Shown in pieces: positions 3 through 28,678 of a stretch of 38,506 bases of DNA. The stretch covers positions 1 to 38,506 of the forward strand of contig REEG01000120.1 in assembly GCA_007695195.1 (NCBI GenBank), written 5' to 3'. How positions within the stretch are numbered: the stretch's first letter is position 1; each line of letters begins with the position of its first letter. The stretch comes from Gemmatimonadales bacterium (lineage in GTDB: Bacteria; Gemmatimonadota; Gemmatimonadetes; Longimicrobiales; Gaopeijiaceae). The notes under the pieces were generated by a model. The model was not told where the DNA came from. It was given only the letters and a program-made list of their open reading frames with translations, and searched no databases. Position numbers and translations under genes: made by a program.

Positions 3-1310
3 GACCTCTTCCAGTACGGGGTCGAGGTGGCCGACGGGTGGGCCGGATGGGCCGGGTTCCGCGTTCTCTTTCCGCTGAACGAACCGGAGCGGATGGATGA
101 GGCGGCGTCCTTCCTCGGTGCATCCTACTTCCGCCTCCTGGGCCCCGGCCACGTCTACGGCCTGTCGGCACGGGGAATCGCCGTGGACACCACCGGTGAG
201 CGGGAGGAGGAGTTCCCGGACTTCCGCGAATTCTGGCTCGTCCGTCCCCAACCCGGAGACAGGACGCTGACCTTCTGGGGACTCCTGGACGGGCCGTCCC
301 TCACCGGCGCCTACCGCTTCCGGCTGGCCCCCCACGGACACCGGGACCTCGACGGGCTCGGGAATGCGGAGGTGTCGGTGGTGGAGGTGGAGGCGCACCT
401 CTTCGCCCGTCGGGACGTGGCGCGCCTCGGCGTGGCCCCCCTCACCAGCATGTTCCTCTTCGACGAGAATCGGGGGCGGGACTTCGATGACGTGCGCCCC
501 CGGGTCCACGACTCGGACGGCCTACTCATGCTCACCCGCTCAGGCGAGTGGATCTGGCGGCCGCTGAGCAATGGACCGGGGCTCCGGGTGTCGTCGCTTC
601 GGGACGTGGACCCCCGCGGCTTCGGACTCCTTCAGCGGGAGCGACGCTTCGACCGCTACCTGGATCTGGAAGCCAGGTACCATGACCGCCCCAGCCTGTG
701 GGTCGAGCCTCTGGACGAGGGGTGGGGCGGCGGCGGGGTCGAGCTGGTGGAAATCCCCACGGACTCCGAATTCCTGGACAATGTGGTGGCCTACTGGGCG
801 CCGGATGAGCCCTTCCGCGCCGGCGAGGAGCGAAGCTACCGGTACCGCCTGGTGAGCTTCGACCACCGGCTCCCTGAGCCGATTCTGGGTCCGCTCGTGG
901 AAGAGCTGGAGGCGGAGGTCCGTCCGGGGCGCGTGATTCGCTACCGGCACGGCTGGGACACCCTGCCAGGCGAGGCGGACCCGCCTCCCCGCAGCCGGCG
1001 ACGATTCGTGGTGGACTTCGAGGCGCCTCAGGGACCGGGCGGCCAGGGGGGTGCCACCGGATCCACTTCTGTGACCCCTCCGGCCGCGACGACGCCGGCC
1101 GGCACCCTTCCGGAGATCCGGCTTCAGGCCTCCGCCGGGCAGGTGGAGGGCGCCCGGGTCGAGCCCCTTCCGGAGCGAAGTGGCGGCTGGCGGGTAACCT
1201 TCGCTCTGGACCCGGGAGAGTCGCCGGCGGACATGCGCCTGTTCCTCACCCGGGACGGCCTGCCCATCACCGAGACGTGGAGCTACCTCTGGATCCCGGA
1301 TCATGACTGA
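3..1310 (+). CDS. opgG: Glucans biosynthesis protein G (OpgG/MdoG), 5' truncated
   Basis: This is the C-terminal three quarters of an OpgG/MdoG family protein, the periplasmic factor that works on the beta-1,2-glucan backbone made by OpgH in osmoregulated periplasmic glucan synthesis. The frame is open to the window edge, so the start and signal peptide are missing; the GTG at 27 lies inside conserved sequence and is not the start. Family blocks seen in order are a GAYRFRL segment, the APLTSMFLF block, RPRVHDSDG, GEWIWRPL, GFGLLQRERRFDRY and RPSLWVEPL. The stop at 1308-1310 overlaps the opgH start by 8 nt, consistent with the usual opgGH operon. A Gly/Thr/Pro-rich stretch near 1040-1110 separates the main domain from a C-terminal Ig-like domain. 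Family assignment is very secure. Confidence 0.95.
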   Translation, partial: DLFQYGVEVADGWAGWAGFRVLFPLNEPERMDEAASFLGASYFRLLGPGHVYGLSARGIAVDTTGEREEEFPDFREFWLVRPQPGDRTLTFWGLLDGPSLTGAYRFRLAPHGHRDLDGLGNAEVSVVEVEAHLFARRDVARLGVAPLTSMFLFDENRGRDFDDVRPRVHDSDGLLMLTRSGEWIWRPLSNGPGLRVSSLRDVDPRGFGLLQRERRFDRYLDLEARYHDRPSLWVEPLDEGWGGGGVELVEIPTDSEFLDNVVAYWAPDEPFRAGEERSYRYRLVSFDHRLPEPILGPLVEELEAEVRPGRVIRYRHGWDTLPGEADPPPRSRRRFVVDFEAPQGPGGQGGATGSTSVTPPAATTPAGTLPEIRLQASAGQVEGARVEPLPERSGGWRVTFALDPGESPADMRLFLTRDGLPITETWSYLWIPDHD

Positions 1311-3183
1311 TCGGTCCCCTCCGCAGCCTTGCCCCCGGCGGACCCTTCCCCGGGCTCTTCCGGCCATGGCCCTTCGCCGTGCCGGAATGGTGCTGGCGGT
1401 GTCGGGCACCACGGTGGCCGGGGCCCTTCTCATGCTGGGCATCATGGCCGGAGACGGACTGACCCTTCTCGAGGCAGGGATCCTGGCGCTCTTCGCCCCG
1501 AGTTTCGCCTGGATCTCCCTGGCCTTCTGGAACGGCGTCGCGGGCTTCTCATTGCAGCTCCTCCGGCTGGACCCCCTGACCCTGGAACGGCGACCCGCAC
1601 CGGGGAAGGTCGGGGAAGGGAGTGCTCCGCTCCGGTCCCGGGTGGCCCTGGTCATGCCCACCTACAACGAGGACCCGGAGCGGGTGGTGGCCGGACTCCT
1701 GGCCTCGCTGGACGCTGCCGCCTCCACCGGGCACGGAGAGGCATTCGAGGCCATTCTCCTGAGCGACACCTCGGACCCTGCCATCGGCCGGCGGGAGGAG
1801 GAGTTGGTAGCAGGCCTCCCCATCCGGTACCGGCGCCGCCCCGCCAACACCGGGCGCAAGGCCGGGAACATCGCCGAGTTCTGCGACCGGTGGGGAGCCG
1901 AGTACGATCTCATGGTCATCCTGGATGCCGACAGCCTCATGGGCGGTGACACCGTGGTGGAGCTGGTGCGCCGGATGGAGGCGAACCCCGGAGTCGGCCT
2001 CATCCAGACCGTTCCGATCCCGGCGCGCCAGGAGACGCCCCTGGGCAGGTTCGTCCAGTTCGCCTCGGCCCTCTACAGCCCCATGCTGGCGGCGGGCCAG
2101 GCCTTCTGGCAGGGAGACGCGGGAAATTACTGGGGCCACAACGCCATCCTGAGGGTGGAGCCCTTCTCCCGCCACGCCCGCCTCCCCGTCCTCTCGGGGG
2201 CGCCGCCTCTGGGCGGCGAGGTGCTGAGCCATGACTTCGTGGAGGCTGCGCTCCTGCGCCGGGCCGGGTGGCAGGTGGTGCTGGCGGCGGATCTCACCGG
2301 TAGTTGGGAAGAGGTGCCGGGAAACCTGGTGGACTTCGCCGTCCGGGAACGGCGTTGGGCCCAGGGAAGCCTGCAGCACCTTCGGCTTCTGGGCGTCGGC
2401 GGGTTCCACCCGGTGAGTCGTCTCCACCTTCTTCTGGGTGCCGTGAACTACCTGGCCTCGACCCTGTGGCTCCTCCTTCTCCTTCTCGGGACCGTCTACG
2501 TGCTGGCGCCGGGAGGGCACGGTCCCATGGTCATGGAGTCGCTCCCCGGATCGGGGTTGGGAGAAGGGATCCTGGATCGACTCGGGGCAGGGTGGCTATC
2601 CCTTCTCGGCGTCACGGCGGTGATCCTCTTCCTCCCCAAGGCGCTGGGAGTCGTCCTGGCTGTCCTCCGCCGACGCCGGGAGTTCGGGGGCGCAGTGCGT
2701 CTCGCCGCCGGAGCTCTGTTGGAGACGGTCCACAGCATCGTCATGGCGCCTGTCATGATGCTCTGGCACACCGCCTTCGTGGGCGGCGTCCTGGCCGGAC
2801 AGAACGTGACCTGGGGGCCGCAGATCCGTGAAGGTCGGGCCGTGGGGTGGCGCGAGGCCCTCCGGCGATCCGGATGGATGAGCGCCGTGGGCATGGCCTG
2901 GGCGGCGGCCATTGGGGTCCTGGCGCCCCTCTTCCTTCTCTGGATGTCCCCCATCCTGGTGGGCCTGGTGGCAGCGCCCGCTCTGGTTCGCCTGAGCGGG
3001 ATTGCCTCCTGGGGCGATAGATTGAGGAGAATGGGCCTTCTCCACACACCCGCGGAGCGGACGCCGCCTCCGGAACACCGTCTTCGGACCTTCCCACCGC
3101 CCTCCGACAGCTCTCCCTCCTCGCTCCGGACCGAACTGCGTATCCATGCGGAGCGTTCTCCCATCCCGGCCCACACGCCATGA
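1303..3183 (+). CDS. opgH: Glucans biosynthesis glucosyltransferase H (OpgH/MdoH)
   Basis: This inner-membrane GT2-family enzyme polymerises glucose from UDP-glucose and passes the chain to the periplasm. The 626-residue product has two N-terminal membrane segments (about 25-85), then a cytosolic GT domain: PTYNEDP at 119-125, the DAD metal/nucleotide motif at 208-210, the SHDF acceptor-site motif at 309-312 and RERRWAQG at 348-355. Hydrophobic segments follow to about residue 570, ending in a Pro/Ser-rich tail. It is clearly shorter than the roughly 850-residue enterobacterial enzyme, mainly because the N-terminal cytoplasmic extension is missing. The ATG overlaps the opgG end by 8 nt. Its own stop overlaps the next gene's ATG (3180-3183, ATGA), tying the glucan genes to the following pterin-type cluster. 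Confidence 0.95.
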   Translation: MTDRSPPQPCPRRTLPRALPAMALRRAGMVLAVSGTTVAGALLMLGIMAGDGLTLLEAGILALFAPSFAWISLAFWNGVAGFSLQLLRLDPLTLERRPAPGKVGEGSAPLRSRVALVMPTYNEDPERVVAGLLASLDAAASTGHGEAFEAILLSDTSDPAIGRREEELVAGLPIRYRRRPANTGRKAGNIAEFCDRWGAEYDLMVILDADSLMGGDTVVELVRRMEANPGVGLIQTVPIPARQETPLGRFVQFASALYSPMLAAGQAFWQGDAGNYWGHNAILRVEPFSRHARLPVLSGAPPLGGEVLSHDFVEAALLRRAGWQVVLAADLTGSWEEVPGNLVDFAVRERRWAQGSLQHLRLLGVGGFHPVSRLHLLLGAVNYLASTLWLLLLLLGTVYVLAPGGHGPMVMESLPGSGLGEGILDRLGAGWLSLLGVTAVILFLPKALGVVLAVLRRRREFGGAVRLAAGALLETVHSIVMAPVMMLWHTAFVGGVLAGQNVTWGPQIREGRAVGWREALRRSGWMSAVGMAWAAAIGVLAPLFLLWMSPILVGLVAAPALVRLSGIASWGDRLRRMGLLHTPAERTPPPEHRLRTFPPPSDSSPSSLRTELRIHAERSPIPAHTP

Positions 3184-4205
3184 ATCAGACTCGAGCCTTC
3201 TGGGTCACCGCCCCGGGCACCGGGGAACTCCGCCCCGCCACCGTCAGGGATCCCGGCCCAGGCGAACTCCGGGTGCGGACTCTCTTCTCGGGGATCAGTC
3301 GGGGGACGGAATCGCTGGTCTTCCAGGGGCGGGTGCCTGAGAGTCAGTGGGATCAGATGCGGGCTCCCTTCCAGGCCGGGGAGTTCCCGGGCCCCGTTCG
3401 CTACGGCTACCAGAACGTGGGCCGGGTGGATGCGGTGGGAGAAGGGGTCGAACCCCGGCTCTGGGGCCGCGCCGTTTTCTGCCTCTTCCCGCACCAGGAG
3501 GCCTATGTGGTTCCAGCCGGGGCGGTGATCCCCCTCCCCCAGGGGCTCCCGCCGTCCCGGGCCGTGCTCGCCGCCAACATGGAGACGGCGGTGAACGCCG
3601 TCTGGGACGCAGGTCCCTCGGTGGGTGACCGGATCGTGGTCATCGGAGCCGGCGTCGTGGGCCTCCTCATCGCCCGACTCTGCCGCCGGATTCCCGGCAC
3701 CCGGGTGCATCTGGTGGACCCTGCGCCGGAGCGCCGGGAGGTGGCGGAGCGGTTGGGCCTTCCGCTGGTCACGTCGACCAAGCGCCTTCCCGGCTCGGTG
3801 CGGGATGCGGATCTGGTCATCCACGCCAGCGGTAATCCGTCCGGACTTGAGGGCGCGCTGGACCTCCTGGGTCCCGAGGGCACGCTGGTAGAGGTGAGCT
3901 GGTTCGGCGATCGCCCCGTCTCCCTTCCCCTGGGAGGGAACTTCCACTCCCGCCGCCTGACGATCCGCAGCAGCCAGGTGGGTCGATTGTCTCCCGACCG
4001 CACACCGCGCTGGGACCATGGCCGACGCATGGAGTTGGCCCTTCGCCTCCTGGCTGGAGACCCGGATCTGGACGGCCTCATCAGTGGGGAGTCGCCCTTC
4101 CGGGACCTCCCCACCGTCATGTCCCGCATTGCCGGTGGGGAGGACCCGGGCGTGCTCTGCCACCGGATCCGCTACGAAGCCAACGAGGGGGTGGTGGCGC
4201 CGTAG
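3180..4205 (+). CDS. Medium-chain (MDR) dehydrogenase, BchC-like, lacking zinc ligands
   Basis: This 341-residue MDR-superfamily oxidoreductase has an N-terminal GroES-like domain and a Rossmann fold with GAGVVG at 156-161, followed by an acidic residue typical of nucleotide binding. The position that carries the catalytic zinc Cys in alcohol dehydrogenases reads GIS-RGTE (S40), and the GHE motif reads GYQ (76-78). The catalytic zinc site is therefore absent. BchC (bacteriochlorophyllide dehydrogenase) and related proteins share this GISxGTE pattern, so a zinc-independent dehydrogenation or reduction is more likely than classical alcohol dehydrogenase activity. The start overlaps the opgH stop, and the next gene begins 49 nt after this one ends. 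The context (PTPS homologue, glycosyltransferase, RibD reductase) suggests it modifies a side chain of a pterin-like product; the substrate is unknown. Confidence 0.85.
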
Positions 4206-4240
4206 AGCCGGCCACCCCGTGAACCCCCAACACCCCTCTC

Positions 4241-4245
4241 AGGAG
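4241..4245 (+). promoter_or_regulatory. Ribosome binding site fixing the PTPS-homologue start
   Basis: AGGAG sits 9 nt before GTG at 4255. It decides the start, because the open frame extends far upstream inside the preceding dehydrogenase gene without any homology. Confidence 0.65.
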
Positions 4246-4254
4246 TCACCATAC

Positions 4255-4653
4255 GTGTTCAGTCTCAATGTCCGGGACCACTTCATGATCGCCCACAGCT
4301 TCCAGGGCGAGATCTTCGGCCCGGCGCAGAACCTTCACGGCGCCACCTATGTGGTGGACGCTACCTTCCGGAGAGCCGAACTCGATGAGGACGGGCTCGT
4401 GGTGGACATCGGGCTGGCGGCCGAGGAACTCAAGGGCATCTTGACGGAGCTGAATTACCGTAACCTGGACATGGTGCCGGAGTTCGAGGGTCGGAACACC
4501 ACCACCGAGTTCCTGGCCCAGGAGATCTTCCGGCGACTCCGGGCCCGGGTGAAGGCCGGCGCGCTGGGAGAGGGTGCTCGGGGCCTCCACTCCATCTCCG
4601 TGCGCCTGAACGAGTCCCACGTGGCCTGGGCCTCGTACGAAGCGGAGCTTTGA
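4255..4653 (+). CDS. Divergent 6-pyruvoyl-tetrahydropterin synthase/QueD homologue
   Basis: This 132-residue T-fold protein starts at GTG 4255. Family features are present: MIAHSF with His14 at the first zinc-ligand position, LHG with His28, VVDIG at 49-53, the TTTE block with Glu85, and a C-terminal NES segment with Glu120 where the family anchors the pterin ring. Residues expected in active QueD/PTPS are replaced. The catalytic Cys four residues before HGH is Ala24, the second His of HGH is Ala30, and the catalytic Asp-His pair appears as Asn67-Tyr68. The fold and pterin pocket are probably kept, while canonical triphosphate elimination or side-chain chemistry is probably lost or changed. 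The stop overlaps the proposed start of the glycosyltransferase gene. Annotation pipelines would call it 6-carboxytetrahydropterin synthase, which may mislead. Confidence 0.85.
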
Positions 4654-6770
4654 GCGCAGGCCACCGCCACCGGCAAAGCCCGGATCCGCCCCCACCCACG
4701 GGCCCCTGGCACCTGGTGGTGCCGGGGCCCGTGGGTCAGCGCACCGGTGGCTACCTCTACGACGCCCGCATGCGGGACGAGTTTCTCCGTCGGGGTTGGG
4801 AGATGCCTGTCCATGAGCTCCCGGGCCGGTTCCCCGCCGCCGATCCCGCAGCCAGACAGTCCATGGCGCGCACGCTGTCGGCGCTTCCCACCGGAAGCCG
4901 GGTGCTGCTGGACGGCCTGGCCTTGGGTGGACTGCCCTGCGAGGCGGCCGTACAGGCCCGCCGCCTCCGGCTCGTGGCCCTGGTGCACCACCCGCTGGCC
5001 CATGAGGCGGGGCTCCCGGCGCACCTGCGCCTCCGGTTCGGTCTGACCGAGCGGGAGGCCGTGCGCCACTGCATGGGAGTGGTGGTCACCAGCCCGTTCA
5101 CGGCGGAGCGGGTCCAGGCGCTGGGCGTCCCACCGGAGCGGATCAGGGTCGCCCCCCCGGGGACGGAGCCGGCGCCCCTGGCCTCGGCTCCGCTCCGGGC
5201 TCCTGCCTTCGGAAACGAGGCGCAGGGGCCCATGCACCTGGTGTGCGTGGGGTCGCTGGCGCCCCGGAAGGGGCAGGACATCCTGGTGGAGGCCGCCGCC
5301 CGGATGGAGGCTTCAGGGTGGACCCTGACCCTTGTGGGAAGCCTGGAGCGGAACCCGGCCTTCGCCCGGGAGGTGGTGCGGCGAATCCGGGAACTCGGCA
5401 TGGAAGATCGGATCCGGGTCTCCGGCGAGCTCGACCATGAGGCGCTGGAACGCCTCTACCGGCAGACCACCCTCCTGGTGGTCCCGTCGCTCTACGAAGG
5501 CTATGGAATGGTGGTGACCGAGGCGGTGGCGCGGGGGATTCCGGTGCTGGCCACCGATGGGGGAGCCCTTCCCCATACCCTTCCCGCGGGCTCCGGAGTG
5601 GTGGTCCCCGCCGGAGACGCCGCCGCACTGGGTCGCGCGCTGGACCAGCTTCTGGAAGCCCATGGCGCCCGTTCGGACCATCCCGGGGCGGCTCGCTGGC
5701 GGGCCCTGGTGGAGGAGGCCCGTCACTGTTCCGACCGGCTCCTCGACTGGCCCGAGGCCGCCTCGGTTCTGGCGGAAGCCCTGGCATCGCTGGACTCCAT
5801 GGAGGGGGCCCGCACGTCGGCCATGCCCTTCGCTCCGGAGCCCCCCCATGCGTCCGGGTCCGCCCACAGTCCCGACCCGTCCCGGGCACAGGCGTCACCA
5901 GACCCGGCAGACGCCACCTTCGACGCCGACTGGCTCAGCCTTCGCGAGCCTGTGGACCACCGGTCCCGAGCCGAGGGATTGCTCCCCGACCTGGTGGATT
6001 GGTGGCGCACCCGGATGGCCCATCGCATCGTGGATCTGGGCTCCGGGACCGGATCGAACCTGCGGTATCTGGCTCCTCGACTCCCGGGGTCCCAGCGATG
6101 GACCCTGGTGGATCACGACCCGGACCTCCTGGCCCGGGTCCGTCGGCCCACTCCATCCGGGACCTTCCACATCCGCTCGCTGGATCCCGTGGTGGCGGAC
6201 CTGGCCGGTCGGGGCCTTGAGTCGGTGGCCCGAGCCGACCTGGTCACCGCCTCCGCACTCCTGGACCTGGTGTCGAGGGAGTGGCTCGGGCGATTGGTGC
6301 AGGCGTGTCTCGAGGCGGGAGCGGCGGCCCTCTTCGCCCTCTCCTACGACGGAACCGTCCGGTGGTCCCGGGCCGCCGGAACGCTGGACACGGATGGCGG
6401 CGATGTGGAGGGCGGAACGAGGGTCAGCGACAGATGGATCCTGGACGCCGTCAACCGGCACCAGCACCGGGACAAGGGGACGGGGGGAGCGCTGGGTCCC
6501 CGGGCCGCGGAAGAGGCGGCCCGGCTCTTCCGTGGGGCGGGGTATCGATGTCGCCTCCTGCCGACTCCCTGGGTTCTGGGCTCCGCAGATGCATCGCTGG
6601 TCGGTGAACTCGTTGACGGTTGGGCCCGAGCGGCCACCGAGGTGGCCCCCGGACGGGCCGATGCCATCCGACGCTGGGCACGCCTCCGCACGAAACAGGT
6701 CGCCGCCGGAGAGGTTCAGGTCTCGGTGGGCCATCTGGATCTGCTGGCTCTCCCGCCGGAGGCCGGGTGA
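4650..6770 (+). CDS. Fusion: GT4 glycosyltransferase plus SAM methyltransferase
   Basis: This 706-residue two-domain protein begins with a GT4/GT-B glycosyltransferase (about 20-380). It has a Gly-rich N-terminal loop (GQRTGGY), the GSLAPRKGQ donor-domain block at 201-209 and the EX7E pair E283/E291 in [14 protein letters not shown] Pro/Ala/Ser-rich linker (about 385-425) leads to a class I SAM methyltransferase whose motif I is [10 protein letters not shown] at 461-470. No signal peptide or membrane segment is seen, so it is likely cytosolic. The proposed TTG start overlaps the upstream stop (TTGA, 4650-4653) and its ribosome site (GGAG at 4644) is poorly spaced. Homology begins near residue 20, so in-frame GTG codons near 4716 are alternatives. 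The fusion suggests one small acceptor is both glycosylated and methylated. Confidence 0.88.
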
Positions 6771-6801
6771 AGGGCCTGACGGGTCTACCGGAAGACCACC
6801 G

Positions 6802-7794
6802 GTGAAGAGCCGGTGGGGACGAGCGGGCCTTCGGTGGCTCCCGGGCCTGCTGGTGCTGGTGGGGATCCTCTACTGGCTCGGCGGCGCCGGACTGGGAGAT
6901 CGTCTCCGGAATCTCTCGCCGGGGTGGGTGCTGGTGGCCCTCCTCCTCTCGGTCCTGCAGGTGGTGATCTCGGCCTGGCGGTGGCGATTCACGGCGGCCC
7001 GACTGGGAATGCGCCTCCCCTTTCGCCGGGCCCTGGCGGAGTACTACCTGGCGGGCTTCCTGAACCAGGTGCTCCCGGGCGGCGTGGTGGGAGACGTGAC
7101 CCGTGCATGGCGCCATGCCGGCCGGGATGTGCGTGCAGGCCGGGCCTTCCGGGCGGTGATCCTGGAGCGGGCATCGGGACAGGTCATCATGACCGGCGTG
7201 GCGCTGGCCTCCCTGGTCCTCATGGTGTCCACCATGGTGGGCGGCGGGAGCGCAGCGGACGGTGAGATCCTTCGGGGATGGCTGGTCACCGGAGCGGTGG
7301 CGGTAGCATCGCTGGGGGTCGTGGGGGCGGCGGCATACCGCTTCCTGCACCGACGTCTGCGCGCGGAGATCCGCCGCGCACTCCTGGGCCGCCGTGCCCT
7401 TCCGGTGCAGATGGTGACATCGGCCCTGGTGGTAGCAAGTTATCTGGCCGTCTACCTGGCCTCCGCTCGCGCCGTGGGCGTGGAGACGCCGGTGAGCGTT
7501 CTCCTCCCCCTGGTGGCGCCGGTCCTGGTGGCCATGCTCATCCCCCTCACGGTGGCGGGCTGGGGAGTCAGGGAGGGTGCGGCGGCGCTGGTGTGGGCCG
7601 CGGTGGGTCTCGGCGCCGCCGAAGGGGTGGCCATCTCGGTGGCCTACGGGCTCCTGGTCCTGGTCTCGACGCTGCCGGGTGGGCTGGTCCTCCTGTGGGG
7701 CCCCGTCAGCCCTGGTGGTTGGAAGCCCCGGACCGGAGATCCAGATCGAAGAGCACGTCGGAGCCCAGGCGAAAGATCCGGGTCCGAGGCCTGA
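6802..7794 (+). CDS. UPF0104/lysylphosphatidylglycerol-synthase-type integral membrane protein
   Basis: This 330-residue polytopic protein resembles the flippase-like LPG_synthase_TM family (UPF0104, YbhN-like): about seven to eight hydrophobic helices, a conserved AEYYLAGFLNQVLPGGVVGDVTRAWR block early on, and a late GWGVREGA segment. It lacks the cytosolic aminoacyl-transferase domain of true MprF, so lipid aminoacylation is not expected. Transport or flipping of a lipid or the pathway product is an inference. I chose GTG 6802, 31 nt after the preceding stop, because the frame upstream has no family sequence. The last 89 nt run over the 3' end of the convergent creatininase/RibD gene, and the Arg/Ser/Gly-rich C-terminal tail lies in that overlap. 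Confidence 0.82.
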   Translation: MKSRWGRAGLRWLPGLLVLVGILYWLGGAGLGDRLRNLSPGWVLVALLLSVLQVVISAWRWRFTAARLGMRLPFRRALAEYYLAGFLNQVLPGGVVGDVTRAWRHAGRDVRAGRAFRAVILERASGQVIMTGVALASLVLMVSTMVGGGSAADGEILRGWLVTGAVAVASLGVVGAAAYRFLHRRLRAEIRRALLGRRALPVQMVTSALVVASYLAVYLASARAVGVETPVSVLLPLVAPVLVAMLIPLTVAGWGVREGAAALVWAAVGLGAAEGVAISVAYGLLVLVSTLPGGLVLLWGPVSPGGWKPRTGDPDRRARRSPGERSGSEA

Positions 7795-9340
7795 GCGCCC
7801 CCTCCATCCGGCGGATGGGAGGAAGGGTCAGGGCGGGGCGTCCGGAGCCCATGAGGAGGGGCGCCACGGTGACGTGGAGGCGGTCAAGCGCCCCCGCCTC
7901 CAGGAAGTGGGAGACGGTCGTTCCGCCACCTTCCACCAGGATCCGTGAGAGACCCCGGGCACGGAGGACCCGGATCACCTCCCCAGGATCGAATCGTCCG
8001 TCGGCGTCGGTGGGAAGGGATACCCGCTCCACGCCCGGCTCCCGGGAACCACCGGAGGTCTCCACCGAAGCGGCGGGAGCGCGGTGGCGGCCGGGCGATG
8101 CGCCTTCGCCGCCATCATCTTCTGCGGCCACAAGGTGGAGGGTGGGCGCAGCGCCGTCCCGGAAGATCCGGAGCGTTTCCGGAAGCCGGCACCTGGGGTC
8201 CAGCACCACCCGGACCGGATTCGAGCCCGGCACCCGCCGTACGGTCAGTCGGGGGTCGTCGGAGAGGGCGGTACCGGCTCCCACCACCACGGCGTCCACC
8301 AGGGCACGCAGGCGGTGGAGGCGCACCAGATCCTCTTCGCCGGTGACGTAGTGGGAATGGCCCTCCTCGGTGGCGATCCGTCCGTCCAGCCCCTGCCCCA
8401 ACTGGCCCACCACGAAACGGGCGTCGGCCATGAGGGGCAGGAAGAGTTCGGAGAGGGGATCATCTGCGGGAGCCCCCCTCGCAGGACCGGTCCCGAGGGC
8501 GACGCCGGGCCCGGCGTCACTGGACCGGGACCCGTCCAGCGGGGCCCGCCTCCCTTCCAGACGATCCAGGGGGAAGGCCCTGGCGTCGCGCAGGACGGCG
8601 GCCAGCCGAGCCCCCCAGAATTCCACCATCGTCCGACCCATGGCGGCGTCGGCCAGGGTGGCGTCGCCGGTGAAGCCCAGCGGATTCAGATCTCCGGCCA
8701 GCCAGGCGAATCCCGCCGCCCCTTCCGCCGAAACGATCTCCAGAGAGGCCTCGAGTTCCTGGGCCAGGGAAGGCCCCGGACGAAGCTCGTCCGTTCGGAC
8801 CAGGTCGGGTCGGAGGTGAAGCATCATGGCGGTTTCCACGGCCCCGCCGTGGAGTCCGTGTCGCCACTCCCCATCGGGAAGCTCCACCGAGGGCGGGCGG
8901 CCGAACCGGGGGTAGTGGACCGGGATGACCAGGAGTCCCGCCTCGGCGCGGAGGCGGAGGGCAGCACCTTCCAGGGCATGCCGGTTGCCACCGTGGGTAT
9001 TCAGGATCACCAACCGCCGTCCGCCCGACGCGGCAAGGCGTCGTCCCATCCGGACCACCCAGTCCGTCAGGAGATGGGCGGGAACGCTCAGGGTGCCGGG
9101 GAAGCCCTCGTGCTCCAGACTGGCCCCCACCTCCAGCGCCGGCAGATGGACCAGGGGGAACTGGGACGGGAGGTGCCGCTCGGCCTCCGAGACCAGGCCG
9201 GCGGCGATGACGGCGTCGGTGGAGAGGGGCAGATGGGGGCCGTGCTGCTCCGTGGCCGAGACGGTCCACAGGACCACCGGGTCCGAGGCGGCGAGGCGTG
9301 CCGCCTCGGGCCAGGTCAGCTCTCCCCAGACCCGGCTCAT
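7706..9340 (-). CDS. Fusion: creatininase-family amidohydrolase plus RibD-type reductase
   Basis: This 544-residue protein has an N-terminal creatininase domain (1 to about 255). Its metal ligands are intact by motif: E31 and H33 in TEQHGPH, D42, H116 in NTHGGN and E169 in HGGAVE. A low-complexity linker (about 262-300) precedes a RibD_C/dihydrofolate-reductase-like domain with LDGRIAT, HRLRALVDAVVVGAGT, DDPRL and a late LVEGGG nucleotide-binding motif. There is no RibD deaminase domain. In archaeal riboflavin/F420 synthesis, the creatininase homologue ArfB deformylates FAPy-ribose phosphate and the reductase ArfC acts next; by analogy this may catalyse both steps. I chose ATG 9340, which overlaps the FkbM stop (ATGA), because the longer frame upstream shows no domain sequence and reads through the preceding gene. 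Confidence 0.9.
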   Translation of the reverse strand: MSRVWGELTWPEAARLAASDPVVLWTVSATEQHGPHLPLSTDAVIAAGLVSEAERHLPSQFPLVHLPALEVGASLEHEGFPGTLSVPAHLLTDWVVRMGRRLAASGGRRLVILNTHGGNRHALEGAALRLRAEAGLLVIPVHYPRFGRPPSVELPDGEWRHGLHGGAVETAMMLHLRPDLVRTDELRPGPSLAQELEASLEIVSAEGAAGFAWLAGDLNPLGFTGDATLADAAMGRTMVEFWGARLAAVLRDARAFPLDRLEGRRAPLDGSRSSDAGPGVALGTGPARGAPADDPLSELFLPLMADARFVVGQLGQGLDGRIATEEGHSHYVTGEEDLVRLHRLRALVDAVVVGAGTALSDDPRLTVRRVPGSNPVRVVLDPRCRLPETLRIFRDGAAPTLHLVAAEDDGGEGASPGRHRAPAASVETSGGSREPGVERVSLPTDADGRFDPGEVIRVLRARGLSRILVEGGGTTVSHFLEAGALDRLHVTVAPLLMGSGRPALTLPPIRRMEGALRPRTRIFRLGSDVLFDLDLRSGASNHQG

Positions 9341-10083
9341 GACTCCCCTCGCACCCGGCGGGCATAGAGGTCTCCCGACGGTGCGGCGCCGGCCCCTTCC
9401 CGGAGCCAGGCAACCGCTCCATCCGCCGAACACCACCGGGAGAAGAGAAAACGTCGCCCCTCCCCGGACACGGCGTTGAACTCGTACTCTCCCAATTCGG
9501 TCAGTCGCTCCACGCACGCCACCGCCACCTCCAGCGACCCGGCCACGAACTCAAAGGACAGCGCCTGCAGGGGCCGCGTCAGCCCGGCCAGGACCCGGTC
9601 TTCAAACCCCTCCACGTCCACCTTGCAGAAGCGCGGCTCGCCGTGCTCCCGAATGAGCTCGTCCAGGGTGGTGACGGGCACCTCCACCTCCCGGTTCCAG
9701 CGAACCCGGCGAAAGCCCGGATTCGTGCGCCGGATCTGCTCCGTCCACCCCCGGTCCAGGGTGGACACGGTGGGGTTGCCGGGGCTCACGGCCAGCGACG
9801 CCGAACCGGTGGAGGGACCGGCGGCCCGGGGCACGATCACCACCCCGGGCCGTCGCCCCACCAGGCGCCGGAGCCAGGGAAGAAGGCGGGGGTTGGGCTC
9901 CAGCGCCACGACCCGGGCCCCCAGCGCCGAAAAGGCCGCCGTTCGGTCTCCCAGGTGCGCTCCCACATCGAATACCAGGTCATCCGGGCCCACGAAGGGC
10001 CGATAGAGTTCACGGAGCGCCCCCTGGCGTCCCGGACGCCAGTAGATGAAGAGGGAGCGAAGGAGACCCCACCACGCCTTCAT
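9337..10083 (-). CDS. FkbM-family SAM-dependent methyltransferase
   Basis: This 248-residue methyltransferase has motif I in VFDVGAHLGDRT (about 37-48), the acidic ribose-binding residue in ALEPNP, and the FkbM hallmark FCKVDVEGFED followed by LSFEF. FkbM enzymes O-methylate hydroxyl groups on sugars and polyketides, so a sugar carried by the locus product is a reasonable substrate, though unproven. Its start overlaps the stop of the CBS gene, and its stop overlaps the start of the creatininase/RibD fusion (both ATGA), so the three minus-strand genes are translationally coupled. A second, distinct FkbM protein is encoded at 28675-29706. Confidence 0.9.
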   Translation of the reverse strand: MKAWWGLLRSLFIYWRPGRQGALRELYRPFVGPDDLVFDVGAHLGDRTAAFSALGARVVALEPNPRLLPWLRRLVGRRPGVVIVPRAAGPSTGSASLAVSPGNPTVSTLDRGWTEQIRRTNPGFRRVRWNREVEVPVTTLDELIREHGEPRFCKVDVEGFEDRVLAGLTRPLQALSFEFVAGSLEVAVACVERLTELGEYEFNAVSGEGRRFLFSRWCSADGAVAWLREGAGAAPSGDLYARRVRGES

Positions 10084-10622
10084 TCAGAATCGGCCAGATG
10101 GTCCAGGATATCACTGTTGGTGACGATCCCCACCAGTTGGCCGTTGTCCACCACCAGGACCCGGTGGATCTTCCGGTCCCGCAGGATTCGAGCGAGATCC
10201 TGGAGGGTGGCCTCGGGGGGAATCATGACTGGATTGGTGCTCATGATGTCGGCGACCTTGTACCCGTCGAAGAGCTTGTCGGGCACCTCCTGGATCCGTG
10301 AGCGGACGTCCACGAAGCCACCGCCGGGTGTGACGTAATAGGCAAAGAACTCCCCCTCCACCGGCGGATCGAGAAACCCGGTCTCCTCCGCCGGCGCTCC
10401 CCGCGCCATGCCCCAGCGCATGGCCTCGGGCACCTCTCCCATCTCCCGCGCCAGATGCAGCACGTCGCGGACAGTGACGATCCCCACCAGCGCCTCATCG
10501 GCATCCACCACCGGAGCACCTGTGATCCCCTTCCGATCCAGGAACTCAACCAGATCGGCCACCGAGGATTCAGGCGATACAGTCGCCACCTCCGTCTTCA
10601 TCAGATCTCTGACCATTGTCAT
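10080..10622 (-). CDS. CBS-domain pair protein
   Basis: This 180-residue cytosolic protein contains two CBS motifs: an N-terminal VRDLMKTEVATVSPESS to VGIVTVRDVL, and a C-terminal VADIMSTNPVMIPPEAT to VGIVTNSDILDHL. A roughly 50-residue insert containing EGEFFAYYVTPGG separates them. CBS pairs usually bind adenosyl nucleotides and act as energy or SAM sensors; no catalytic domain is fused here. It is the first gene of the coupled CBS-FkbM-creatininase/RibD set, with an AAGAGG ribosome site just before ATG 10622. A regulatory role over the set's SAM- or nucleotide-using enzymes is possible, but co-transcription with unrelated genes is also common for CBS proteins. Confidence 0.9.
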   Translation of the reverse strand: MTMVRDLMKTEVATVSPESSVADLVEFLDRKGITGAPVVDADEALVGIVTVRDVLHLAREMGEVPEAMRWGMARGAPAEETGFLDPPVEGEFFAYYVTPGGGFVDVRSRIQEVPDKLFDGYKVADIMSTNPVMIPPEATLQDLARILRDRKIHRVLVVDNGQLVGIVTNSDILDHLADSE

Positions 10623-10870
10623 GGCGTCCTCTTGGTTGGAGCTTCAGAGGGCCTCCTCACCCCGGAGGCCCTGTGGGGGGCGGCCAGCGTCGCCCAGGAC
10701 GTGGGCGCCTCCCTGAAGATGGCGCAAAGGCCGTGCCCGGGGCCACCCTGCCTCCAGGACCCGATTCGACGACCATGGATCTCCGGCCCCGTCCGGTGGA
10801 TATGACCGGATGCAGGACGTTGAATATGACCCGTTTCAGGGCTTGTGATCCTGACCCCAGACCGAGGAGA

Positions 10871-11977
10871 ATGTCCAACATCATGATGCAAACAACCCTC
10901 TTTCCCGGCCGGTACGTGCAGGGAGACGGCGCCGTGTCCCGCCTTGGAAGCGAACTCTCGCGCCTGGGCCGGCGGGCCCTCCTCCTCGCCGACCCCTTCG
11001 CCCGCGACAACCTCCTGGATCGCATGGATCTCACCGGCGACCACGGCGTGGAATTCCACGTGGAGGGCTTCGAAGGGGAGTGTTCGGATCCTGAGATCCG
11101 ACGTCTGGTGGGAGTCGCTCGGAACCAGGGGACGCAGGTGGTGGTGGGATTCGGTGGCGGCAAAACCCTGGATACCGCCAAGGCCGTAGCCCACGAACTG
11201 GAGGTCCCGGTTGCGGTGGTCCCCACCATCGCGTCCACCGATGCCCCCTGCTCGGCCCTCTCGGTGATCTACACACCCGAGGGTGAGATGGAGCGCTACC
11301 TCATCCTGCCCCGCAACCCGGACCTGGTCCTGGTGGATACGGGAATCATCGCCCAGGCCCCGGCCCGATTCCTGGTGGCGGGAATCGGCGATGCGCTGGC
11401 CACCTGGTTCGAAGCCGACGCCTGCGAACAGAGTTGGGCGGCGAACCTCTCCGGAGACCGGGGATCGGTCACCGCCTTCGCACTGGCCCGGCTCTGCTAC
11501 GACACCATCCTCGAATACGGCCAGGCCGCCGTGGTCTCGTGCCGGGAACAGGTCGTCACGCCGGCGCTGGAGCGGGTGGTGGAGGCCAACACCCTCCTGA
11601 GCGGGTTGGGCTTCGAGAGTGGCGGGCTGGGCGCGGCCCACGCCATCCACAACGGACTCACCGTTCTGGAGGCCACCCACGGGTCCTGGCACGGAGAGAA
11701 GGTGGCCATCGGGGTGCTGGCCTCGCTCTTCCTCACGGACAAGCCCCGGGAGATCCTGGACGAGGTCTACGATTTCTGTGAGGAAGTGGGCCTCCCCACA
11801 ACCCTGGCGGAGATCGGTCTGGGCGAGGTCACCGACGAGGAACTCATGCGGGTGGCGGAGCGGGCCTGCGCCGAGGGCGAGACCATCCACAACGAGCCCA
11901 TGCCCATCGTCCCCCGAGCCGTGCATGCGGCGCTCCGGGCGGCGGATGCCGAGGGACGGAGACGAACGGAGACTTAG
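10871..11977 (+). CDS. Glycerol-dehydrogenase-like iron/zinc-dependent alcohol dehydrogenase
   Basis: This 368-residue protein is close in length and layout to GldA (about 367). The N-terminal block PGRYVQGDGA matches GldA. The NAD-binding loop GGGKTLDTAK is at 95-104, and metal ligands appear as D174 (GIGDALATW), H257 (AAHAIHNG) and H274 (SWHGEKVA). GldA oxidises glycerol to dihydroxyacetone with NAD+; related enzymes include hydroxyethylphosphonate and glycerol-1-phosphate dehydrogenases, but the HAIHNG and HGEKVA blocks favour GldA. An AGGAG at 10865-10869 is close to ATG 10871. The in-frame ATGs at 10883 and 10886 would begin exactly like GldA and are good alternatives. It is divergent from the CBS gene, with 248 nt between them in which I see no clear promoter. 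It stands alone, with no dihydroxyacetone kinase nearby. Confidence 0.85.
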   Translation: MSNIMMQTTLFPGRYVQGDGAVSRLGSELSRLGRRALLLADPFARDNLLDRMDLTGDHGVEFHVEGFEGECSDPEIRRLVGVARNQGTQVVVGFGGGKTLDTAKAVAHELEVPVAVVPTIASTDAPCSALSVIYTPEGEMERYLILPRNPDLVLVDTGIIAQAPARFLVAGIGDALATWFEADACEQSWAANLSGDRGSVTAFALARLCYDTILEYGQAAVVSCREQVVTPALERVVEANTLLSGLGFESGGLGAAHAIHNGLTVLEATHGSWHGEKVAIGVLASLFLTDKPREILDEVYDFCEEVGLPTTLAEIGLGEVTDEELMRVAERACAEGETIHNEPMPIVPRAVHAALRAADAEGRRRTET

Positions 11978-12089
11978 GACCAGCTCCCGAACTCTGCGGG
12001 CCCATTGAACATCTGCCGGATTCGGTCCGTAGGGGAGGAGACGTGGGGTGGACGGAAGCACCCCGGCACCGCACCTTGCCTCGCCGACA

Positions 12090-12118
12090 GGGCCCGGCCG
12101 GCAGGTCTCGCCGGGCCC
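12090..12118 (+). terminator. GC-rich hairpin after the alcohol dehydrogenase
   Basis: A 9-bp perfect stem (GGGCCCGGC with GCCGGGCCC) encloses an 11-nt loop between the alcohol dehydrogenase and the ABC exporter genes. There is no T-tract after it, so termination is only suggested; it may also affect the leader of the exporter operon. Confidence 0.3.
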
Positions 12119-12187
12119 GGCGGGGGGTAAGCCGCACCCTCTCCGAAGTGAATTCCGCTGCCCTCGGGCCCTCCTCCGGGAAATGCC

Positions 12188-13462
12188 ATGGATCTCCGAC
12201 AGATCTGGACCCTGTACCGCCACGAGATCCGTTCGGCGCTCCGGGAACGGAGCATCCTCCTCACCAGCATCATCCTCCCCGTGGTCATGTACCCCACCCT
12301 CCTCTGGGTGGGGTTCACGGGATTCTACTTCCTCGAGGGCCAGGCCGAAGCCATGAGCACCCGGATCGGGGTGACCTCCGTTCCCGAGGTGCATGAACCG
12401 CTGGTGGACTCTCTGGCCGCCAACCCCCGCATCGAGATCCTGGAGTGGACCGACGATGAACGGGCCGCGGCGGCGGAGATCGTACGCGGTCGGATGGAAG
12501 CCCTTCTGGAGCCCATGCCACCCCGGGACGCAGGCGAAGCACTGGACGGGAATCGGACCATCCGGATCCTCTACACCGAGGTGCGGGAGGGTAGCCGATC
12601 GGCCCGGGCCCGGATCGAGGATGTGACCAACGCACACGGCGCCGACTGGATCACGGAGATCCGGAGGGATCTGGGCGTATCGGACACGGTCTGGGCCGAC
12701 TACGCCGTGGTCATGTCCGATCAGGCCAGCGCCGAAGACGTCACCCGCTTCCTCCTGGCCATGATCGTCCCCCTCCTCACCCTCATCATGGTGGCGCTGG
12801 CCGCCTTCTATCCTGCCATCGATGCCACGGCGGGCGAGCGGGAGCGGGGAACCTGGGAGACGCTCATGACGGTGGCCGCCCCGCGAAGTACCGTGGCCAC
12901 GGCCAAGTATCTCTACGTGGCCACCTTCGGCGCCGTAGGCGGACTCCTGAACCTGGCGGCCCTGGCGCTCTCCATCCGATGGATCCTATCGCCCATGACC
13001 AACGGGGTGGGCGAGGAACTCAGCCAGGGTGGAGTTCCCCTCTCGGCCATCCCGGTGATCCTGGCGGGAACGGCCCTTCTGGGCCTCTTCGTCGCCGCCG
13101 GGATGCTGGTCTTCGCCGTCTTCGCCCGGGACTTCAAGGAGGGGCAGTCCATGATCACCCCCTTCTACATCGTCATCCTCATGCCGGCCCTCTTTCTCCA
13201 GTCTCCCAACCTGGAGTTCACCACCGGTCTGGCCGCCGTCCCCATCGTCAACGTGGCCCTTCTGCTGCGGGGCGCCATCCTGGGCGATATCCCCTTCCTG
13301 TCGGGACTGGTGACCCTCATCTCCATGGGGATGGCGGTGATCGCCGCCGTGGCGCTGGCCCAGTTCGTCATGCGCCGGGAGGAAGTCCTCCTCGGGAGCG
13401 GCCAGGGCGGACTCTGGAACTTCCTGACCCGCACCCTCCGTCAAGGGAGGAATGGCTCGTGA
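12188..13462 (+). CDS. ABC-2 type exporter permease, NatB-like
   Basis: This 424-residue permease has a single N-terminal membrane helix (about 22-48), a roughly 150-residue extracytoplasmic domain, and a C-terminal block of about five helices starting near residue 190. The ERERGTWETLMT motif before the second helix of that block is typical of NatB/ABC-2 permeases. NatAB systems export Na+ in Bacillus, but relatives move varied substrates, so the substrate is unknown. It is the first of three overlapping genes: its stop overlaps the GTG of the ATPase gene. The upstream 210 nt contain only the hairpin noted separately. The ATG is supported by the start of the family sequence; the ribosome site is weak. 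Confidence 0.9.
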   Translation: MDLRQIWTLYRHEIRSALRERSILLTSIILPVVMYPTLLWVGFTGFYFLEGQAEAMSTRIGVTSVPEVHEPLVDSLAANPRIEILEWTDDERAAAAEIVRGRMEALLEPMPPRDAGEALDGNRTIRILYTEVREGSRSARARIEDVTNAHGADWITEIRRDLGVSDTVWADYAVVMSDQASAEDVTRFLLAMIVPLLTLIMVALAAFYPAIDATAGERERGTWETLMTVAAPRSTVATAKYLYVATFGAVGGLLNLAALALSIRWILSPMTNGVGEELSQGGVPLSAIPVILAGTALLGLFVAAGMLVFAVFARDFKEGQSMITPFYIVILMPALFLQSPNLEFTTGLAAVPIVNVALLLRGAILGDIPFLSGLVTLISMGMAVIAAVALAQFVMRREEVLLGSGQGGLWNFLTRTLRQGRNGS

Positions 13463-14250
13463 CCGATCCGTTCGTTGAGACCCGAAACCTGACCAAGACC
13501 TTCTACGAGGAGAGCCGGGGCGAGGTCCGGGCCGTGGACAGCGTCGACCTGACCTGCCGGAGTGGCGAGATCCTTGGGCTCCTGGGGGCCAATGGAGCCG
13601 GAAAGACCACCACGCTCCGAATGCTCTCCACCGTTCTGCGTCCCACCTCCGGTGAGGCCTGGGTCATGGGACACGAGGTCAGAAAGGATCCGGAGCGGGT
13701 CCGTGAGAATCTGGGCTTCTATTCGGCCAGCACGGCGCTGTATCCCAAGATCACGGCCCGGGAGACCCTGCGCTTCTTCGCCCAGGTGAACCGCTTCCCC
13801 CGCGAGCGCATCGAGGCCCGGATCGAGGAACTCATCGACCGGTTTGGAATCGGGGACTTCGCCAACAGCCGGGTCGAAAAGCTCTCCAGTGGGATGAAGC
13901 AGAAGGTCTCCATCGCCCGCACCGTGGCCCATGACCCTCCGGTGCTGATCTTCGACGAGCCCACGGTGGCACTGGACGTCCTGAATGCCATCGAACTCCG
14001 TCAGATCATCGGCCGGCTTCGGGACGAGGGAAAGGCCATCCTCTTCTCGACCCACATCATGAGCGAGGCCGAACAGCTCTGCGATCGGATCGCCATCATC
14101 CACCAGGGACGGATCCTGGCCGTAGGTACCCTGGATGAATTGAGGAAATCCACCGGCCATCACTACCTGGAAGAGATCTTCGTCCACTTCGCCCGGGTAC
14201 GGGATCCCAGCGAAGCCGAGGTGGAGAGCCTCCGTCGGGATCGCCCATGA
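13459..14250 (+). CDS. ABC transporter ATP-binding protein, NatA-like
   Basis: This 263-residue ATPase energises the two flanking permeases. Walker A is GANGAGKT at 43-50, the signature is LSSGM at 142-146, and Walker B with the catalytic Glu is VLIFDEPT at 162-169, followed by a switch His in FSTHIMSEAE. The GTG start at 13459 overlaps the upstream stop (GTGA) and has a strong GGGAGG ribosome site at 13445-13450. The stop overlaps the ATG of the next permease (14247-14250). The signature is LSSGM rather than LSGGQ, which is common in NatA/ABC-2 ATPases. One ATPase flanked by two different permeases suggests a heterodimeric membrane unit. Confidence 0.93.
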   Translation: MTDPFVETRNLTKTFYEESRGEVRAVDSVDLTCRSGEILGLLGANGAGKTTTLRMLSTVLRPTSGEAWVMGHEVRKDPERVRENLGFYSASTALYPKITARETLRFFAQVNRFPRERIEARIEELIDRFGIGDFANSRVEKLSSGMKQKVSIARTVAHDPPVLIFDEPTVALDVLNAIELRQIIGRLRDEGKAILFSTHIMSEAEQLCDRIAIIHQGRILAVGTLDELRKSTGHHYLEEIFVHFARVRDPSEAEVESLRRDRP

Positions 14251-27730: not shown

Positions 27731-28678
27731 TCAGATGAGCCCCCGGAAGCGCTCCGGGATCCGGATCACCGGGTCGCCGGGAATCATCCCAGGCTTGTTC
27801 AGGGCGTAGGGGGGCCGGACCCAGCTCTGCCACCGCCGGGCTCGGTCAAAGTAGGCGTCCCCGTCCCGGGGCTCGGACCCGGTGATGATCTCGAAGAGGC
27901 GCCGGCGCCTGTTCAGGTGCCCTCCCCACCCGGTCTTCTGGCGATCGCTGTCGCCCACCTTCCCATGGGCCAGCGCCTCGTCGGCCATGCCCAGATGGAA
28001 GACGAAGAGGTTGGGGTCGATGCGGAAATTCCGACCCTTGATGCGGTGCATCCCCGAGCCCCAGGTGACCGGCGCCGTAGCCACCACCGGCTTGGTGTAG
28101 CGAGACGAGACGTGGGCATAGGCCCGCTGCTCCAGGATGGGGCGCTCCGGATCCAGGGGGTCTTCCTGGTCCAGGTGTTGTCCCACATCCAGCCCGAGCC
28201 CCGACAGGGTGCGGGGAAGGCGCGGGCGGGAGGCGAGGTACGTGCCCAGATCCATCCCGAGGCGCGGGTCCACCACCAGGAACTCGTCCACGTCGCAGAC
28301 GATGAGCACGTCGTAGTAGTGGAAGAGGCCGTCGGCAATGCGCGACATGACCCGGGCGCGACGGCGCATGGCCGCCACCCGCCCCAGGGGGGTGTGGGGA
28401 AGGCGCAGGACGCTGCGCCCGGCATGGCTCTCGGGCAGGTTCTGGTCGTGCCCATCCAGGATGGGGACCAGGTTGTCCGGCCCGCAGATTCGGCCGTAAT
28501 GGGCAATCCACCGCTTCAGGAAGAAGTCGTCGTTCCGGCAGGTGGTGACGGCACAGATGCGGAGGTGCCGGCCGGTTCCGACGCCGTCGGCGCTGTCGCC
28601 TCCCTCACCGGGCCCATGTGCCTCGGTCCTGGTCACGCCGCGCGCCGCTCGGACCGTATCGCCATCCCTCCCGGTCAT
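27731..28678 (-). CDS. GT92-like/GT2-type glycosyltransferase
   Basis: This 315-residue protein shows ICAVTTCRNDDFFLKRWIAHY followed by a strand and VLIVCDVDEFLVVDP. That is the layout of the Glyco_tranf_2_4/GT92-type family, where a DxD-like motif (CDVDEF) coordinates the metal. Further on are GSGMHRIKGRNF and FHLGMADEALAHGK. A poorly conserved Gly/Arg-rich N-terminus (about 1-38) precedes the domain. ATG 28678 overlaps the stop of the FkbM gene (ATGA), so the two are coupled. It most likely adds one sugar to a surface polysaccharide. The N-terminal tail is unusual and could mean the true start is a little downstream. Confidence 0.82.
   Translation of the reverse strand: MTGRDGDTVRAARGVTRTEAHGPGEGGDSADGVGTGRHLRICAVTTCRNDDFFLKRWIAHYGRICGPDNLVPILDGHDQNLPESHAGRSVLRLPHTPLGRVAAMRRRARVMSRIADGLFHYYDVLIVCDVDEFLVVDPRLGMDLGTYLASRPRLPRTLSGLGLDVGQHLDQEDPLDPERPILEQRAYAHVSSRYTKPVVATAPVTWGSGMHRIKGRNFRIDPNLFVFHLGMADEALAHGKVGDSDRQKTGWGGHLNRRRRLFEIITGSEPRDGDAYFDRARRWQSWVRPPYALNKPGMIPGDPVIRIPERFRGLI

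Follow-up and report, generated by a model that had tools for sequence, protein, structure and literature searches.

A conserved, partly plasmid-borne gene set around an SCO6650-type PTPS homologue: a possible pathway for a GTP-derived, lipid-linked 2-amino compound

The stretch analysed here (bases 1-38506 of contig C305; the whole of its 38,506 nucleotides is called the window) comes from a Gemmatimonadales genome of 3.92 Mb in 306 contigs and carries, close to its 5' edge, two facing gene sets that include a homologue of 6-pyruvoyl-tetrahydropterin synthase (PTPS). We propose, with a probability of about 0.45, that this locus is a block of a mobile, conserved pathway in which a GTP-derived 2-amino compound acquires sugar and methyl decorations and is coupled, in many carriers, to a lipid for export. 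That the product is a GTP-derived 2-amino pteridine or pyrimidine is the part of this proposal that we hold to be probable; given such a product, the chances of a lipid-linked stage seem evenly balanced; and given lipid linkage, a glucan as the acceptor is a tentative suggestion. From base 27 the plus strand encoded mdoG (cut), mdoH, an MDR dehydrogenase, the PTPS homologue, a GT4-methyltransferase fusion and a UPF0104 protein, and facing them on the minus strand were a CBS-domain pair, an FkbM methyltransferase and a fusion of a creatininase-family protein with a RibD_C reductase. The families, coordinates and gaps given for seven of these genes in a first-pass annotation of the window were all correct.

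Relatives of the PTPS homologue were sought in one genome per species (84,980 species): 228 stretches held one, and the best 80 loci were used. A plasmid search gave 20 further records, 9 of which were examined. The best 80 loci, these 9 and the window made up the 90 loci to which family models were applied; here the window was covered over its first 16 kb, and it was also mapped over its full length. In 79 of the 80 loci in which all four were present, the genes for MDR, PTPS, GT4 and methyltransferase were colinear on a single strand; these loci belong to Gemmatimonadota, Acidobacteria, Proteobacteria and Actinomycetota. Many of the 90 loci were truncated by contig ends, and within them GT4 was present in 89, MDR in 87, the methyltransferase in 82, a CDP-alcohol phosphatidyltransferase in 73, RibD_C in 66, UPF0104 in 42, the creatininase in 40, FkbM in 37, YceI in 35, an LtaS-like enzyme in 33, GTP cyclohydrolase II in 31, OpgH in 21, OpgG in 17, a second methyltransferase (MT2) in 15, cytochrome b561 in 8 and CBS in 2. 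Two loci (L118, L119) had no reductase or lipid genes within 24 kb. By record titles, the best 80 loci came from Gemmatimonadota, Acidobacteria, and Gamma-, Beta- and Alphaproteobacteria, the nearest named relatives of the window PTPS homologue being Gemmatimonadota. Plasmid carriers included Streptomyces, Arthrobacter, Microbacterium, Methylosinus, Agrobacterium and a conjugative Neorhizobium plasmid, a location of the core that fits its patchy spread.

The same association was seen genome by genome. Among 200 Gemmatimonadota genomes, the PTPS clade (all counted matches had E 2.9e-54 or lower, the next one lying at 4.7e-15) was present in 17, and MDR (E <= 1e-30) in the identical 17. The creatininase (E <= 1e-30) was found in 18 genomes, the 17 PTPS carriers plus one at 1.7e-31, and the reductase (E <= 1e-25) in 19, the 17 carriers plus two (2e-26 to 4e-27). 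Sixteen genomes, the 17 carriers minus the source genome of the window, had the phosphatidyltransferase (E <= 1e-12), and the same 16 had the cluster-type GTP cyclohydrolase II (E <= 1e-55; weakest 5.8e-92). Were genomes independent, which is not the case, the probability that all 16 phosphatidyltransferase genomes belong to a given set of 17 out of 200 would be 1e-22. The Variovorax family (Burkholderiaceae), sampled with 200 genomes, had 10 carriers of PTPS, and the 6 genomes with the phosphatidyltransferase were all among them. The Gemmatimonadota genomes and the loci of named species overlap and are not independent samples: L004 and L127, for instance, are one contig (G191:C189), of equal length and with 100% identical cyclohydrolases. 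Pairwise divergences of ten families were also compared, and the nine other than FkbM co-varied (rho 0.59-0.86), FkbM being more weakly correlated (0.22-0.62).

The conserved gene set is thus almost certainly a single functional unit. Chance neighbours, or several unrelated operons side by side, could be imagined from the two facing transcription units and from the several partners that differ among lineages; that explanation is hardly credible in view of the 79 of 80 colinear loci and the matching profiles in the two samples of 200 genomes. Co-occurrence of the genes across genomes, whose absence the first-pass annotation had named as grounds for rejecting its pathway, was borne out, with colinear loci in several phyla.

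The PTPS homologue (4255..4653, plus strand; PF01242 3e-26, 92.2 bits vs. a cut-off of 22.4) has a GTG start, 49 nucleotides after the MDR gene. Its best match in the PDB was 3D7J, the structure of S. coelicolor SCO6650 (8.6e-55 over 131 residues), followed by one at 4e-4, and judged by sequence it is a member of the SCO6650 clade. When the clade was aligned to 1b66, the position of the catalytic Cys was Ala24 and that of the third zinc His (HGH to HGA) was Ala30, each in 90 of 90 loci; the Asp of the Asp-His pair was Asn in 77 loci and Asp in 3, and the His of the same pair was Tyr in 65, Phe in 15 and Leu in 10, and His in none. Glu120, by contrast with these replaced residues, was present in 90/90 loci and aligned with the conserved Glu of the canonical paralogues of the source genome. 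We take the replaced positions to be the catalytic and zinc-binding ones of PTPS, and the Glu to be the residue that binds the pterin. In the study of SCO6650 by Spoonamore et al. in 2008, the structure is said to lack zinc and the triad, and the protein to lack PTPS activity.

The clade consensus was FGPAQxxHGA, and none of the subfamily motifs CxxxHGH, CxxxxxHGH or ExxHGH, given for COG0720 in a section of PMC5041015 that calls the function of PTPS-V unclear, was found in it. Scores against the QueD equivalog TIGR03367 (cut-off 89.25 bits) were below threshold for the window protein (42.8) and for its Streptomyces (36.1) and Agrobacterium (30.9) relatives, and the 6PTHBS cut-off was not reached either. 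The homologue had earlier been listed as a PTPS/QueD homologue, and several annotated records label clade relatives as 6-carboxytetrahydropterin synthase; an ordinary PTPS or QueD identity was rejected for the window protein, its active-site residues being replaced and its model scores lying under the cut-off. Two other PTPS-family genes lie about 1.5 kb apart on contig C59 of the source genome (L001, L002) and score higher with PF01242 than the window copy. Both retain the Cys, HGH and Asp-His; since these are canonical, the window copy is a third, divergent PTPS paralogue of this genome. Taken together, the alignments suggest that the family and probably the pterin pocket were retained, and that the former PTPS chemistry was lost.

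These residues bear directly on the idea of a biopterin or monapterin glycoside of the cyanobacterial type, in which PTPS would form 6-pyruvoyl-tetrahydropterin from dihydroneopterin triphosphate, the MDR would replace sepiapterin reductase and the GT4 would add glucose. A PTPS fold, a dehydrogenase and a GT4 do occur together in the locus, and natural compounds of this kind are mentioned in PMC13259868 (2'-O-methylmonapterin in a passage of the text, biopterin glucosides in the reference list). With the catalytic Cys and zinc His replaced by Ala in 90/90 loci, the Asp-His pair mostly Asn-Tyr and never with His, and a cyclohydrolase of type II associated with the genes (the loci were not searched for type I), this scheme was given little probability.

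The enzymes that would supply a GTP-derived precursor were the second source of evidence. In the cluster GTP cyclohydrolase II, the three zinc Cys were conserved in 30 of 30 readable sequences (of 31), and the equivalent of E. coli Tyr105 was Tyr in 29 of 31, Met in one (Streptomyces) and a gap in one (a fragment). SCO6655, which carries the Met variant, reportedly stops at the formyl intermediate (Spoonamore and Bandarian). The gene lay 4-16 kb from PTPS on one contig in 14 of the 16 Gemmatimonadota carriers; in the other two, it was located on a contig with the reductase and creatininase (G136) or alone on its contig (G122).

The creatininase-RibD_C fusion of the window (7706..~9340, minus strand; PF02633 2.4e-59, PF01872 6.4e-38) putatively encodes a formamidase joined to a reductase; the listed start of its open reading frame (ORF), 9517, would intrude about 180 nucleotides into the FkbM gene. 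The RibD part matched best the pyrimidine reductases 6p8c and 2azn in the PDB, and the creatininase part 3a6h. The two domains were encoded in one ORF in 3 of the 39 loci with both. The absence of a RibD deaminase, noticed in the first-pass annotation, was confirmed: the fusion matched PF01872 and PF02633 and no further Pfam model. Over 40 creatininase sequences the consensus motifs EQHGpHLPLsTD, NsHGGn and HGGaxET were conserved, and these presumably provide the metal ligands. Identity with the mycofactocin protein MftE was rejected (TIGR03964 135.5 bits, cut-off 172). A role of the creatininase in simply compensating for a cyclohydrolase devoid of the Tyr was not borne out, another residue being present in 1 of 31 sequences (Streptomyces). 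A precedent for the predicted activity is the Sinorhizobium creatininase-family enzyme BrbF, which in the portion of PMC9478397 describing it deformylates the GTP-derived formyl intermediate and serves riboflavin. Cyclohydrolase, putative formamidase and reductase together resemble, on this comparison, the archaeal route to a 2-amino ribitylamino pyrimidine.

Each of the three belongs to the early steps of riboflavin synthesis, and the service of BrbF to riboflavin (as given in that portion of PMC9478397) makes it conceivable that they are an alternative supply for flavins, which the other genes would glycosylate or export. The reductase lacks a deaminase domain, inspection of the 25 recurrent neighbour families by eye revealed no lumazine or riboflavin synthase (no model search was made), and the most constant genes were MDR, PTPS, GT4 and the methyltransferase rather than the riboflavin-like ones, so that a flavin pathway appears quite improbable. 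The earlier suggestion of a GTP-derived pyrimidine or pterin was strengthened by the GTP cyclohydrolase II in many loci, the reductase without a deaminase and the creatininase-family formamidase of the literature (in the part of PMC9478397 cited above).

Lipid-handling genes and glucan genes formed the third group. For the CDP-alcohol phosphatidyltransferase of relatives (PF01066 2.7e-18), a consensus over 73 sequences had the conserved motif DxxDGxxAR...GARFDMExD, and DxxDGxxAR...GxxxDxxxD is, we assume, the catalytic motif of this family. Of the 90 loci, 55 had wide flanks (8 kb or more upstream of PTPS and 9 kb or more downstream; window excluded), and the phosphatidyltransferase was present in 46 of them. 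UPF0104 (24 loci), the LtaS-like enzyme (24), YceI (28) and the creatininase (26) were all within these 46 and in 0 of the 9 without it. Fisher p values for this link were 0.003, 0.003, 0.0007 and 0.002 respectively, in tests that ignore relatedness.

For the LtaS-like protein of locus L043, the predicted structure (pLDDT, the predicted local distance difference test score, 88) had LtaS, LtaP and GacH as its best structural matches (Z 20.2-21.4 in the first seven rows; for 2w5q, Z 21.4, root mean square deviation 3.6 and 273 aligned residues), with phosphoethanolamine transferases and sulfatases next (Z ~17-19). E231, D481 and H482 were invariant in 20 sequences of the family, and the family profile had no match among PDB sequences at E 0.01. 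The known reactions of LtaS and GacH transfer the head group of a phospholipid onto an outside acceptor. The gene content of the lipid arm matches what one would predict for a product that is turned into a phospholipid head group, flipped and then transferred further.

The LtaS-like gene was divergent from OpgG in 10 loci. In the window, the OpgG/MdoG-like periplasmic glucan protein (27..1310, plus strand; PF04349 4e-134, the profile being matched from position 106) is cut at its 5' end by the contig start, which is also the edge of the window, and is followed by the OpgH/MdoH glucan glucosyltransferase (1303..3183, plus strand; NF003958 689.7 bits, cut-off 419). The latter overlaps the MDR gene by 4 nucleotides, so that mdoG and mdoH run into it and the plus-strand unit begins earlier than first noted. 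OpgH adjoined MDR upstream on the same strand in L004, L005 and L118 as well as in the window, and in many Gemmatimonadota and some Gammaproteobacteria OpgG belonged to the locus. One contig of G191, a genome of the same genus (L127), held, in this order, genes for the phosphatidyltransferase, GTP cyclohydrolase II, cytochrome b561, the LtaS-like enzyme, OpgG, OpgH, MDR, PTPS, GT4, methyltransferase and UPF0104, and a second contig (L139) those for reductase, creatininase and FkbM; other Gemmatimonadota loci had much of this gene set in varied order.

The gene list of the first-pass annotation was therefore incomplete: it had overlooked OpgG/OpgH beside MDR and, in relatives, the GTP cyclohydrolase II, the CDP-alcohol phosphatidyltransferase and the LtaS-like head-group transferase. 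OpgGH and the lipid-handling genes would give a job to the flippase-like UPF0104/LPG_synthase_TM membrane protein of the window (6802..7794, plus strand; PF03706 1e-38; 31-nucleotide gap before its start).

Because lipid head-group genes and OpgGH adjoin the core, the PTPS homologue has no PTPS active site and the window has no GTP cyclohydrolase, the locus might instead be one of envelope or glucan decoration with an alditol or glycosyl phosphate head group, the cyclohydrolase, RibD and PTPS relatives having been recruited to unrelated chemistry that involves no pteridine. Against it, a cyclohydrolase II with the zinc Cys was found in 16 of the 16 other Gemmatimonadota carriers (14 on the PTPS contig), the reductase was nearest to pyrimidine reductases, and the core was present in the Actinomycetota loci L114 and L120, where no OpgG/OpgH was found. 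We consider it unlikely and retain the GTP-derived, lipid-linked compound as the preferred explanation.

The MDR dehydrogenase (3180..4205, plus strand; PF00107) was compared with 2d8a: the GHE of threonine dehydrogenase was GYQ and the catalytic zinc Cys was replaced, which confirmed by motif that it is not a zinc-dependent MDR, as had been thought from the start. The GT4 domain (~4650-5840; PF00534) was fused to the class I S-adenosylmethionine (SAM) methyltransferase (~5895-6764; PF13649) in one ORF (4650..6770, plus strand) in the window only, the two being separate ORFs in the other 81 of the 82 loci with both; this fusion and that of the creatininase are mostly local to the window and a few loci. 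In the methyltransferase model (pLDDT 92.8), the listed Foldseek matches were class I methyltransferases with TM-scores <=0.6, which do not indicate the substrate. FkbM (9337..10083, minus strand; TIGR01444 2e-25) is a frequent accessory gene. The CBS-domain pair (10080..10622, minus strand; two stretches matching PF00571), previously counted among the pathway genes, overlaps FkbM here; its family model matched just 2 of the 90 loci, the window and L037, where CBS is ~10 kb from PTPS, and no CBS was found beside FkbM in the 8 kb of the same-genus locus L139. It was discarded as a pathway gene.

From these gene associations, residue patterns and folds we infer the following chemistry and product. 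GTP cyclohydrolase II would open GTP, the Streptomyces version perhaps halting at the formyl intermediate; the creatininase-family enzyme would take off formate; and the RibD-type reductase would convert the ribosyl into a ribityl chain, the 2-amino group staying in place because the reductase has no deaminase domain. The conserved Glu of the SCO6650-type protein may then serve to bind the pyrimidine or pterin, and this protein, together with the zinc-less MDR, would build or oxidise a second ring or side chain by a non-PTPS reaction, after which the GT4 and SAM methyltransferase would decorate the core. The CDP-alcohol phosphatidyltransferase could couple the product, via one of its hydroxyls, to a CDP-activated lipid, the UPF0104 protein could flip the lipid-linked product, and the LtaS-like enzyme could pass the phospho-linked head group to an outside acceptor, possibly the OpgGH glucan where present. 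In its most specific form, a ribityl-pterin glycoside phospholipid would be flipped and yield a phospho-pterin substituent attached to the periplasmic glucan or to some other acceptor in the envelope, and bacteria of several phyla would thereby have a redox, light-absorbing or signalling group fixed outside the cytoplasm; we regard this picture as speculative and rather unlikely.

Several observations weigh against the proposed pathway. The source genome showed no cluster-type GTP cyclohydrolase II and no phosphatidyltransferase when window and genome were searched, its only cyclohydrolase copy being 34% identical and on another contig. None of the genes that precede OpgG in L127 was found elsewhere in the window. 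The window opens at a contig end inside OpgG, so that upstream partners, cyclohydrolase and phosphatidyltransferase among them, may well lie off the contig; true absence is also possible. Among 12 named genomes, a cluster-type cyclohydrolase was found in 6, a short match in 1 and none at E 1e-20 in 5 (three Variovorax, Thiohalocapsa and Thiocapsa); a housekeeping cyclohydrolase was also unseen in those 5, and the search may miss divergent types. With Tyr in 29 of 31 sequences, the cyclohydrolases should deformylate unaided, which would make the creatininase redundant or otherwise employed. The Streptomyces locus L114 had no reductase in its 24 kb, the plasmid locus L115 held the PTPS gene and zero other cluster families, and the phosphatidyltransferase was not found in 9 of 55 wide-flank loci and in 4 of 10 Burkholderiaceae carriers. 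Plain sulfatases matched the LtaS-like model nearly equally (Z 18.6), so that the fold does not fix the reaction, and the glucan as acceptor is drawn from gene neighbourhood only, with OpgH in 16 of 55 wide-flank loci. As a whole, the interpretation in the first-pass annotation was partly supported.

Other features were observed in the window and in the loci. Downstream of the locus (10616-14250), the window held a gene for a glycerol-dehydrogenase-like iron-containing alcohol dehydrogenase (NF006941, above cut-off), an ABC-2 type permease gene and an additional overlapping ORF resembling an ABC ATPase, judged by eye. A second, weak FkbM-like ORF was present at 28675-29706 on the minus strand (E 2e-10), and Rfam and tRNA scans of the window gave no matches. 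Halomonas loci (L037, L040, L045, L054, L058, L083) had a TenA/THI-4 family gene beside YceI, upstream of the cluster, and in Variovorax loci (L018, L044, L048, L052, L063, L068, L070, L071, L072, L082) a membrane-like protein was encoded beside the reductase gene, with no Pfam match at E 0.01 for the one scanned. The core was carried on plasmids in L118 (Neorhizobium pNCHU2750c), L121 (Agrobacterium pAt), L116, L117 and L122, one of them typed conjugative, and in a Streptomyces anthocyanicus plasmid (L115) a lone PTPS homologue at 12001-12426 adjoined a MEKHLA-domain gene.

If the proposal is true, it describes a widespread, partly plasmid-borne pathway for a GTP-derived compound and gives a metabolic place to SCO6650, a protein with a solved structure and no assigned function, and to its PTPS-fold relatives. 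It would further point to a way in which a pterin-type molecule can cross a membrane and stay there, a passage that is presented as unexplained in a section of a 2026 review (PMC13259868). The gene set is compact and well-defined enough for direct expression tests.

In the open-access literature searched, no account of the cluster was recognised, subscription papers being mostly outside that scope. Within it, the association of a pteridine-type core with a phosphatidyltransferase, a flippase-like protein and a head-group transferase of the same cluster is undescribed, and single members are known, such as SCO6650 of S. coelicolor (3D7J, "uncharacterized protein"), which is of the same clade as the window PTPS homologue. 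On a Streptomyces fungicidicus plasmid, a gene of this clade lies beside those for a CDP-alcohol phosphatidyltransferase, MDR, GT4, methyltransferase, creatininase and ribA. With the PTPS/QueD family (COG0720) the homologue shares the PTPS domain and the conserved Glu, whereas the subfamily motifs are not in the cluster clade. Cyanobacterial biopterin glucoside synthesis is alike in that a pterin is joined with a glycosyltransferase; that system has true PTPS activity and GTP cyclohydrolase I, and to our knowledge no lipid genes belong to it. The LtaS/GacH/OpgB type of transfer offers an LtaS-like fold that in the present case occurs in loci with a phosphatidyltransferase, but the enzyme is not in the window. 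A parallel in chemistry would be the archaeal Arf route (ArfA, ArfB, ArfC) together with the bacterial BrbF: GTP ring opening, deformylation and a deaminase-less reduction of the RibD type would be common to both, the deformylation being performed in the bacterial case by a creatininase-family enzyme, as proposed for the cluster. The cluster would differ from them in opening the ring with a relative of GTP cyclohydrolase II and in continuing with PTPS-like, glycosyl, methyl and lipid steps.

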